Virus record (IMG/VR): IMGVR_UViG_3300048828_000275
Location: 1-23,052 of that record
DNA length: 23,052 nucleotides
Strand: one strand, 5' to 3'
Origin: a virus
Shown: piece by piece, positions 1 to 3,635 of the stretch
Layout: each line of letters opens with the position of its first letter
How positions within the stretch are numbered: position 1 is the stretch's first letter
The notes under the pieces: generated by a model
What the model saw: the letters and a program-made list of their open reading frames with translations, nothing else
What the model was told of the DNA's origin: nothing
The model's database searches: none
Translations under genes and position numbers: made by a program

Positions 1-236
1 CTATTAATACACTCCTCTATAGGTGTATTATTAAAATGGGCAATACTAGTTAACACTACAACCATATCACCAACAGCATCTTTTACTTCTTCCGGATCGT
101 TTTTTAATATTGCTTCTGCTAGCTCACCGGCTTCTTCCATTAATTTAATATACTGGGTTTTGATATCCCCTTTGTCGTATATTCCTCGGCCGTATGCCCA
201 ATCGCGTATTTTACCAAATTCGTCTGTTAGTCTCAT
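1..236 (-). CDS. MazG-like nucleotide pyrophosphohydrolase (C-terminus cut by window edge)
   Basis: The first 78 residues are present; the rest lies beyond base 1. The visible part starts MRLTDEFGKIRDWAYGRG and contains KLMEEAGELAEAI followed by DAVGDMVVVLTSIA. These are the two acidic helix motifs (ExxE and ExxD/DxxD type) that bind magnesium in all-alpha MazG-type NTP pyrophosphatases, which cut (d)NTPs to (d)NMP and pyrophosphate. The start ATG overlaps the stop of the upstream thymidylate-synthase-like gene as ATGA, so the two are translationally coupled. Phages use such enzymes to reshape nucleotide pools; members include dCTP- and dUTP-cleaving enzymes. The substrate here cannot be read from sequence, but the neighbour suggests dCTP as one candidate (inference). 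Confidence 0.8.
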   Translation of the reverse strand, partial: MRLTDEFGKIRDWAYGRGIYDKGDIKTQYIKLMEEAGELAEAILKNDPEEVKDAVGDMVVVLTSIAHFNNTPIEECIN

Positions 237-985
237 ATTGTAAAGTTTGTTTTAATAAATTTATTTGTTGTGTAATCTGTTAAAGAATAATTATCGTAAT
301 CACCTAATAATTCTGGCAGCTCATATATTTCGTTATCTAAGTATTGCTCTACACTATTTACTTGATTATTGTATATATGCGCATCGGCTAAGTTTAACCC
401 TAGTATACTAGGTTTTAAATTTGTTTCTTTTGCTATGGTATATAAAAATAGTGCACCTACAATTATATCATAAGGTAAGCCCAGAAAAACATCACTACTT
501 CTAAAGTGCATTACCATATTTAATGTATTACCTGTTCGTACAAAATTAAACTGTGTATAGCAGCAAGGTATTACTTGTTTATTTAAGTCGCAGGGATTCC
601 ATAAAGTAATAACAGCTCTTCTCGTATTATTATTTATTTCTTCTATAACATACTTAACCTGGTCAAATATCTCATCAAAAGATTTTACTTGATATCCGTA
701 CACTCTACCTAAATCTTCTTTGCCATACCCATTCCACCATTTTACATTACAGTCGTTTAAATATTTAATATCAGTTCTCCCCTCGTATATCCATTTAAAC
801 TCTGCTAGGCCTTTATCAAAATATATTTTTTTACCTGTAAGCACTGGAAAACCTTTTTGTAAGTCTATATTAATACTTTTATTAAATAGCTTATACGTAT
901 CTATACCTGTTCTATTTTCAGTTGATAAACCTTCCCGCAATATTTCTACAAGAAGCTTCCTATAATCTCTTTCAAATTTACTCAT
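233..985 (-). CDS. Thymidylate-synthase-fold enzyme, probable deoxycytidylate (hydroxy)methylase
   Basis: This 250-aa protein has the thymidylate synthase fold: NRTG at 24-27 (phosphate-binding Arg25), VYGYQ near 95-99, RR at 122-123, the active-site stretch IPCCYTQF with probable catalytic Cys141, RSSDVFLGLPYD at 162-173 and DAHIYNN at 201-207. In thymidylate synthase the last residue of the LGxPFN motif is the Asn that reads uracil; here it is Asp173. Asp at this place is the hallmark of T4 deoxycytidylate hydroxymethylase, and changing that Asn to Asp is known to switch thymidylate synthase towards dCMP. The usual PCH is PCC and the usual GxQWR lacks its WR. I infer a dCMP-modifying enzyme; hydroxymethyl versus methyl transfer cannot be told. 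It overlaps the upstream gene by 8 bases and the downstream one by 4. A divergent thymidylate synthase remains possible. Confidence 0.75.
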   Translation of the reverse strand: MSKFERDYRKLLVEILREGLSTENRTGIDTYKLFNKSINIDLQKGFPVLTGKKIYFDKGLAEFKWIYEGRTDIKYLNDCNVKWWNGYGKEDLGRVYGYQVKSFDEIFDQVKYVIEEINNNTRRAVITLWNPCDLNKQVIPCCYTQFNFVRTGNTLNMVMHFRSSDVFLGLPYDIIVGALFLYTIAKETNLKPSILGLNLADAHIYNNQVNSVEQYLDNEIYELPELLGDYDNYSLTDYTTNKFIKTNFTI

Positions 986-1238
986 TGCTATAATTATTTA
1001 ATGCAGCTATATATGCCACGGCGTCTAATAATGTATCCTCTTTTAAATTGTATGCCATTCTACTAATTTTTAATGCTATCATACATTTATAAAAGTCTTC
1101 TGTAGTAATAACTTTATTGCACAGCTCTGAAGCTACAATAGCCGCTTTTTCCATTGACTTATCAAATGGGCCGTACTGGCGTTCTTTTTCTTCAGCGCGC
1201 TCATTAATTATTTCATTTGCTTTATTTAAAATATTCAT
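978..1238 (-). CDS. DUF6378-like small phage protein, nucleotide-metabolism neighbourhood
   Basis: This 86-aa protein has the pattern RQYGPFDKSMEKAA ... ITTEDFYKCMIALKISRMA ... DTLLDAVAYIAALN. It matches from memory the phage DUF6378 family, whose members read like E..YGD....F.....W...... ITP.DVA.MM...K.SR......DS..DAAGY.AL. The family is all-helical and reminiscent of MazG-type folds, but no activity is established to my knowledge. It sits directly upstream of the thymidylate-synthase-fold gene, overlapping it by 8 bases, and overlaps the gene before it by 17 bases, so it belongs to the same tightly packed operon. A role in dNTP handling is inference from position only. Confidence 0.65.
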   Translation of the reverse strand: MNILNKANEIINERAEEKERQYGPFDKSMEKAAIVASELCNKVITTEDFYKCMIALKISRMAYNLKEDTLLDAVAYIAALNNYSNE

Positions 1239-2651: not shown

Positions 2652-3073
2652 TATTTATATTCGTTATATAAAGCTACTAGCTTAGACCATACCTCGGCTT
2701 TAAAGGCGCAGGAGCTACACCCCTCTACTCTAGTTCTAAATACCCTCTCGAATATCTTTATAAATTTATTTTGGTCTTCCGGAGGGAATCTATTTTGCCT
2801 AGACTCTATAGTAGTATGAATAAGATTAAACTCCTCCTCTAAAAAACATTCCGGCTTCTCGTATCTAAATTTCTCGTTTAGTTTCTTCTTACGCTCCTCG
2901 CAACCGCAGTCTTTCTCTAGTTTCTGGAAGACGGTATCTACTACCTTCTTAATACCGGTAGCCTTAGTAATTTTTTCTACGGTATCTCCCAAGCCTTCGC
3001 TTCCTTCCCCGTGTTTCTTAACCCATTCCTTGTAGGCTTTAGTCCTCTTGTCTTTCGGTTCTAATTCGCTCAT
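2651..3073 (-). CDS. Conserved flavobacterial-phage protein with Cys pairs (GLGDTVEKIT/CGCEER type)
   Basis: The 140-aa protein holds GLGDTVEKITKATGIKKVVD (27-46) and then DCGCEERKKKLN (55-66), a signature I recognise in proteins of flavobacterial phages and prophages but without known function. Cys56 and Cys58 together with Cys119 and Cys122 (GCSSC) could form a four-Cys zinc site; Cys76 is an extra. The N-terminus is strongly basic (EPKDKRTKAYKEWVKKH), compatible with nucleic-acid or protein contact. It overlaps the sigma factor gene by 35 bases and the nuclease-like gene by one, so it is read from the same message. Confidence 0.6.
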   Translation of the reverse strand: MSELEPKDKRTKAYKEWVKKHGEGSEGLGDTVEKITKATGIKKVVDTVFQKLEKDCGCEERKKKLNEKFRYEKPECFLEEEFNLIHTTIESRQNRFPPEDQNKFIKIFERVFRTRVEGCSSCAFKAEVWSKLVALYNEYK

Positions 3074-3635
3074 AATCTTGATTTTTATAATCTATGTAAT
3101 CCTCGTTATACTTTTCTCTTAGTTTATTCTTAGCGTTTTTAAGAGTATGGAATATGCTAACGAAACTTATACCCGTCTCTCTAGCGATACCTCTTATACT
3201 TAGATCGCTATCCCGGTAGAGTTTAAATAGCTTCTTATTATACCAGTGCCAAGTCTCTATCTCTTCGTCTATAAGCAGACATATATTATTATACGCTTCC
3301 TGCTCTAGGATAAAGTCCTCTACCTCTAGTTGTAGGTTATTCTCTTCGTCGTCTATATATACCTTAATTATCTTTTTCTTTTTATTAAAGTACTGGTAGA
3401 GTACGCTTCTTAAAGTAAAGAACATATAACCCTCGGCGATCCTTTCGTTTTTAATAACCTTCTCGGGCTTAGCGTATTTATATAAAACAATATAAGCTTC
3501 CATTACTAAATCTTCCGCATAATCGTATTCACCGAAGCTTTCGATTATCTTAATCCATTTCTTATGATCTTTATAAGCGTACTTTAACCAGTCGGAGCTT
3601 CCCATACTACTGTAATTGCTATTATAAATATACAT
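3039..3635 (-). CDS. Phage RNA polymerase sigma-70-like factor
   Basis: The 198-aa protein has the two-domain plan of small sigma factors. A region 2-like helical part, EDLVMEAYIVLYKYAK (41-56) followed by EGYMFFTLRSVLYQYF, resembles the core-binding part, and a region 4-like helix-turn-helix covers about 139-172 (LYRDSDLSIRGIARETGIS...LKNAKNKL). Region 4 would read a -35-type element. It probably redirects host RNA polymerase to phage late or middle promoters (inference). The start is uncertain: ATG at 3635 gives a 52-base overlap with the upstream membrane-protein gene, while ATG at 3605 (residue 11) gives 22 bases, closer to the overlaps elsewhere. A non-sigma HTH protein is less likely because both regions are present. 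Confidence 0.7.
   Translation of the reverse strand: MYIYNSNYSSMGSSDWLKYAYKDHKKWIKIIESFGEYDYAEDLVMEAYIVLYKYAKPEKVIKNERIAEGYMFFTLRSVLYQYFNKKKKIIKVYIDDEENNLQLEVEDFILEQEAYNNICLLIDEEIETWHWYNKKLFKLYRDSDLSIRGIARETGISFVSIFHTLKNAKNKLREKYNEDYIDYKNQDYERIRTERQED

Follow-up and report, generated by a model that had tools for sequence, protein, structure and literature searches.

Cytosine-specific members of the thymidylate synthase (TS) family are already known. In the Xanthomonas phage XP12, which belongs to the same genus as AXL1, all cytosine is replaced by 5-methylcytosine (PMC9206674); AXL1 was used here as the stand-in for the XP12 enzyme. A change of Asn to Asp at position 177 switches TS from dUMP to dCMP and yields 5-methyl-dCMP, according to the mutants cited in PMC8670742 (positions 83, 143, 147 and 177 are numbered as in TS, residues of the query by its own sequence). 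In the MetaGPA study, positions 177 and 147 best separated the TSs of cytosine-modified from those of unmodified contigs, Asp177 and loss of His147 being tied to the modified ones; the TS co-occurred with PRA-PH, and the cytosine-modification TSs also with hmC carbamoyltransferases and a deaminase (PMC8670742). For T4 dCMP hydroxymethylase (gp42, dCH), which is without the C-terminal tail of TS, a signature of Asp145, three residues ahead of the Cys, plus Ser94 has been proposed (PMC6400193). Preference for ribonucleotides in MilA follows Ala176 and Lys133 (PMC5175136).

The gene described below lies at one end of the window, the whole 23,052-nucleotide stretch of viral DNA that was analysed. 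Coordinates of all features are collected in table 1.

Fold and active-site register

The 250-aa protein matched the PF00303 (thymidylate synthase) profile with an E-value of 1e-60 and 205.6 bits, against a cut-off of 24.3. Its AlphaFold2 model (pLDDT 94.6) superposed on ThyA structures over 246 residues with a Z-score of 35.6 and an rmsd of 1.1 A, which is the full TS fold, so that profile and fold both place it in the family; the superposition reached the very end of the closing tail, with I250 lying on I264 of ThyA. T4 dCH was absent among the 50 structural matches listed for the model. Pfam, PHROG and NCBIfam alike name the gene product thymidylate synthase, as the first-pass annotation had predicted for most pipelines.

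That annotation had also placed the Asp of an LGLPYD motif, residue 173, at Asn177 of E. coli ThyA, and both the phmmer and the MAFFT alignments agreed. In these alignments the segment from W129 to RSSD165 ran against TS with no gaps, and Cys142 is therefore assigned as the nucleophile (Cys146), with Cys141 at Pro145, Tyr143 at His147 and Ile139 at Leu143 of ThyA. The earlier equation of Cys141 with Cys146, and the reading of the motif as PCC in place of PCH, were each shifted by one residue: the motif is PCC-Y, with Tyr143 at the His147 site. Cys141 was rejected as nucleophile, since it would require an indel within an otherwise gapless segment. Two further deviations were seen as first described, namely Phe161 at the position of TS Gln165 ahead of RSSD, and V-K where WR would follow GYQ.

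The remaining catalytic set of TS is kept: Cys142 (Cys146), Glu62 (Glu58), Arg122/123 (Arg126/127), Arg162 (Arg166), Ser163 (Ser167), Asp165 (Asp169), His203 (His207) and Tyr205 (Tyr209). Trp83 of TS is replaced by Tyr or Phe in the query clade. The Asn177 and His147 of a canonical dUMP enzyme are replaced by Asp173 and Tyr143; the closing tail and the hydrophobic residue at position 143, as in canonical ThyA, are retained. Several relatives end exactly in IKAPLAI, compared with IKAPVAI in ThyA, and the residue three before Cys142 is Leu or Ile across the clade, as in TS.

Table 1. Coordinates of the features discussed; positions refer to the window unless a contig or locus is named.
Feature	Position	Strand	Remarks
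TS-family gene (predicted dCMP C5-methylase)	985-233	minus	intact ORF, 250 aa
Asp173 codon (E. coli ThyA Asn177, pyrimidine discriminator)	467..469	minus	phmmer and MAFFT alignments
Cys141-Cys142-Tyr143 codons (Cys142 = nucleophile Cys146; Tyr143 replaces His147)	557..565	minus	gapless alignment W129-D165
Ile139 codon (E. coli ThyA Leu143, T4 dCH Asp145; methyl-versus-hydroxymethyl signature position)	569..571	minus	Leu in 63, Ile in 2 of 65 aligned sequences
C-terminal tail IKTNFTI (TS closing tail IKAPVAI)	236..256	minus	alignment and structural superposition
MazG/PRA-PH pyrophosphatase gene	3..236	minus	PF03819, E 8e-7; PF01503, E 9e-6; cut by window end
Complete MazG/PRA-PH gene	L001:4588-4890		100 aa
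DUF6378 gene	978..1238	minus	86 aa; PF19905, E 9e-14; overlaps TS start by 8 nt
Gene for 198-aa protein	3039-3635	minus	weak match to phrog_1740 (RNA polymerase sigma-factor family), E 7e-8
MazG fusions, examples	L006:2674-3420, L011:10755-11513, L046:8539-9288		about 36 more
Patescibacteria Asp177 TS, examples	L318:6001-6693, L334:6001-6699		loci L317-L390
Deaminase near Asp177 TS	L334:5507-5860, L352:5492-5839, L317:7546-7908	minus, minus, plus
Annotated 'ThyA' with Asp177	L248:489-1325		cyanophage S-TIM5
Annotated 'ThyA' with Asp177	L249:501-1412		Microbacterium phage Arroyo

Conservation and gene neighbourhood

Viral contigs were scanned with six peptide probes, none of which contains Asp173, and 65 loci were returned; the query and 64 full-length viral loci were aligned (65 sequences). 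Asp173, Cys141, Cys142, Tyr143, Phe161 and Tyr172 were invariant, and Asp173 remained so as identity among the probe-found relatives dropped to 57%. An independent contig (L001), which is 100% identical, is the same phage recovered from a different sample, and it runs 2.2 kb beyond the window end. Given this identity and the invariance in 64 relatives, Asp173 is not a chance or read error. A broader scan with LPYD patterns matched 406 contigs, which were confirmed as relatives. Thirteen phage records, one of them the window, had exactly one PF00303 gene apiece. The portal protein of the phage is closest to those of Nonlabens phages P12024S/L (35%), which suggests a marine flavobacterial host.

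The MazG/PRA-PH gene lies downstream of the TS gene and overlaps its stop by 4 nt. At 58 of 67 loci it is the next gene after TS, 32 of these 58 having the 4-nt overlap, and the motif EEAGELAEA...EEVKDAVGD is intact in the window gene and in 59 of 60 loci. The DUF6378 gene immediately precedes TS at 60 of the 67 loci. Its PHROG label, 'phosphofructokinase', is not credible for a protein of 86 aa; Foldseek returned no match and the AlphaFold2 model was poor (pLDDT 64), and conserved E/K/R and D residues in this helical protein hint at a nucleotide pyrophosphatase-like role.

Modification genes were searched for among the 36 proteins of the window and L001 using Pfam and PHROG (best 25 of 57 PHROG families), and no further DNA-modification gene was found within that scope; DHFR, nucleotide kinase, glycosyltransferase and carbamoyltransferase genes were likewise not found in the window and L001. 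A search of 18 records of the query clade, which may be incomplete, gave no dCMP deaminase.

Two further features of the neighbourhood were recorded. In 39 relatives out of 60, the MazG domain is preceded in one fusion protein by an N-terminal part of about 150 aa, which weakly matches GIY-YIG-type families (MUG113 and T5orf172; best E 7e-5). T4 EndoII is also a GIY-YIG enzyme and is annotated as degrading cytosine-containing DNA, so a link of the fusion to attack on unmodified DNA is possible. The 198-aa protein, judged from its weak sigma-factor match, may be a phage sigma-like regulator conserved in the lineage.

Substrate, product and alternative readings

The best explanation, and one that we hold to be marginally probable, is that the gene encodes a TS-family dCMP C5-methylase supplying cytosine-modified phage DNA. 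The MazG/PRA-PH partner, perhaps together with DUF6378, would hydrolyse dCTP to dCMP. The enzyme would bind dCMP through Asp173, Cys142 would attack C6, and a one-carbon unit from 5,10-methylene-tetrahydrofolate would be added at C5. Since the enzyme retains the TS closing tail as well as a hydrophobic residue at the Leu/Ile position, the intermediate would then be reduced to 5-methyl-dCMP by transfer of a hydride. Kinases of the host would convert this to 5-methyl-dCTP, which could replace much or all of the cytosine in the phage DNA and shield it from host nucleases, as in XP12. As the phage genes read included neither a DHFR nor a detectable dCMP deaminase or nucleotide kinase, recycling of dihydrofolate and phosphorylation of 5-methyl-dCMP would fall to the host.

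Specificity for dCMP is well supported as a prediction. The query has all three features associated by MetaGPA with cytosine modification (Asp at 177, a residue other than His at 147, and linkage to PRA-PH), and it is on the residues, their clade-wide conservation and this association that the dCMP half of the original label, dCMP (hydroxy)methylase, stood. A MilA-type CMP enzyme was rejected: the query has Ser163 and Arg122, the deoxyribonucleotide type, which makes dCMP, not CMP, the expected substrate. Modified cytosine in the virion DNA would follow from this reading.

The 'hydroxy' half fared less well. A dCMP hydroxymethylase, in which water would capture the exocyclic methylene to give 5-hydroxymethyl-dCMP and DNA with hmC or a further decorated base as in T4, is regarded as unlikely. 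It would account for an active site that, like that of T4 gp42, is altered and has Asp at the discriminating position (177/179), for Tyr/Phe in place of Trp at position 83, and for the co-occurrence of MetaGPA TSs with hmC carbamoyltransferases; no glycosyl- or carbamoyltransferase, however, is among the window genes. The proposed signature is also missing. SPO1 gp29, a second such phage enzyme, annotated as a dUMP hydroxymethylase, has Asp three residues ahead of the Cys as does T4 gp42, whereas the query has Ile139 there (Leu/Ile in the clade), has Arg94/Val95 where Ser94 of T4 would call for Ser/Thr, and keeps the tail that T4 gp42 lacks. Leu/Ile at 143, the missing Ser94 counterpart and the retained tail together favour methyl over hydroxymethyl, and Asp173 with the non-acidic Ile139 is the combination expected of a dCMP methylase of the XP12 or TS N177D type. 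On these residues 5-methyl-dCMP is the more likely product; it is put forward as a prediction, since the signature was calibrated on two hydroxymethylases only (T4 gp42 and SPO1 gp29), and Trp83 and His147 are both changed in the query.

An alternative supply of dTMP, in which 5-methyl-dCMP would be converted by a host dCMP deaminase and no modified base would be needed in the DNA, is rated as distinctly improbable for the phage. It draws on phage S28C10, the enzyme of which is 55% identical and has an adjacent dCMP deaminase, and on the Patescibacteria described below; it is opposed by the lack of a deaminase in the 18 possibly incomplete clade records and by the association of phage Asp177 with modified cytosine (PMC8670742).

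A scan of bacterial genomes identified chromosomal Asp177 TS homologues in Patescibacteria. In 30 of 30 such genomes, which as drafts may miss genes, the Asp177 TS was the only PF00303 gene and no ThyX was found. A PF00383 deaminase was present in all 30 (29 over the cut-off) and DHFR in 29, each lying no more than 6 kb from the TS in 28 genomes. The deaminase is of a distinct family with an unusual zinc motif (HSE/HAE ... GHWWACxxCW). Among 145 genomes sampled from the phylum, which are related to one another and so are not 145 independent tests, close homologues (E < 1e-40) occurred in 5 of 6 known Asp177-TS genomes and in 0 of 139 others (next best 5e-10); 38 of 42 TSs read from this sample have Asn177. 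The arrangement suggests a route from dCMP to 5-methyl-dCMP to dTMP, methylation coming first and deamination later. That some Patescibacteria have an Asp177 enzyme as their sole detected TS means that the residue alone does not imply modified DNA. No paper was found on this case or on deamination of 5-methyl-dCMP to dTMP.

An ordinary dUMP TS that tolerates Asp at 177 is very improbable: the fold, Leu/Ile143, the tail and the name given by every library are TS-like, but neither Asp177 nor Tyr147 varies within a clade that is itself divergent, the ordinary TSs aligned, canonical ThyA and T4 Td among them, have Asn177 and His147, most of the Patescibacteria TSs read also have Asn177, and the N177D mutants cited in PMC8670742 switch to dCMP.

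Phylogeny and comparison with known systems

The query clade was supported at 100/100. In the best tree it grouped with the XP12-like phage and Patescibacteria clades, all with Asp177, apart from the Asn177 TSs and from T4 gp42; support for the grouping (93/76) is not firm. Close kinship to T4 gp42, which falls in a separate clade, received no support. It is conceivable, if doubtful, that the Asp177 homologues are one old dCMP-methylase lineage put to two uses, cytosine replacement in phages and a dTMP route through a neighbouring dedicated deaminase in Patescibacteria. Two annotated 'ThyA' proteins with Asp177, from cyanophage S-TIM5 and Microbacterium phage Arroyo, lie on otherwise unrelated long branches, so that the genomes of annotated phages may conceal more TSs of the cytosine type.

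If the favoured dCMP methylase reading is correct, a large lineage of marine phages (65 contigs by query-specific probes, 406 by broader patterns) has cytosine-modified DNA that is masked by the standard annotation 'thymidylate synthase', with a bearing on restriction sensitivity, on the reading of viromes by EM-seq or bisulfite and on host defence. The combination of positions 177, 143 and 147 with the tail gives a testable rule for dUMP versus dCMP as substrate and methyl versus hydroxymethyl as product, and the alternative dTMP pathway is open to direct test in Patescibacteria.

Of the described systems, MilA/BcmA CMP hydroxymethylases share with the query the TS family and Asp at the cytosine position, but MilA has Lys133 and Ala176 where the query has Arg122 and Ser163. 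T4 gp42 likewise shares the family and the discriminating Asp, and differs in having the Asp145/Ser94 pair where the query has none, in its missing tail, in lacking Leu/Ile143 and in its clade. The MetaGPA cytosine-modification TSs, compared by description, agree in Asp177, non-His147 and co-occurrence with PRA-PH, whereas their carbamoyltransferase and deaminase were not found in the query clade. The closest annotated relative is 'thyA' of phage S28C10 (AP013540, Votkovvirus), with PCCY and LPYD; that phage belongs to another lineage (Autographiviridae), and PRA-PH, kinase and dCMP deaminase genes are adjacent. The LPYD-type TS of AXL1 (AXL1_63) has PRA-PH and dCMP deaminase genes at its flanks and DHFR next; of these, DHFR and the deaminase were not found in the query clade. 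The two enzymes are 27% identical, and AXL1_63 has Asn at 143, Pro at 147 and a shortened tail, unlike the query. Shared with this XP12/Bosavirus type are Asp177 in LPYD, a Tyr96-type YGY, a residue other than Gln165 before RSSD and the adjacent PRA-PH gene. The kind of system is thus known from XP12 and MetaGPA; the marine lineage and its active-site combination of PCC-Y, Leu/Ile143, Asp177 and tail appear undescribed in the literature searched.
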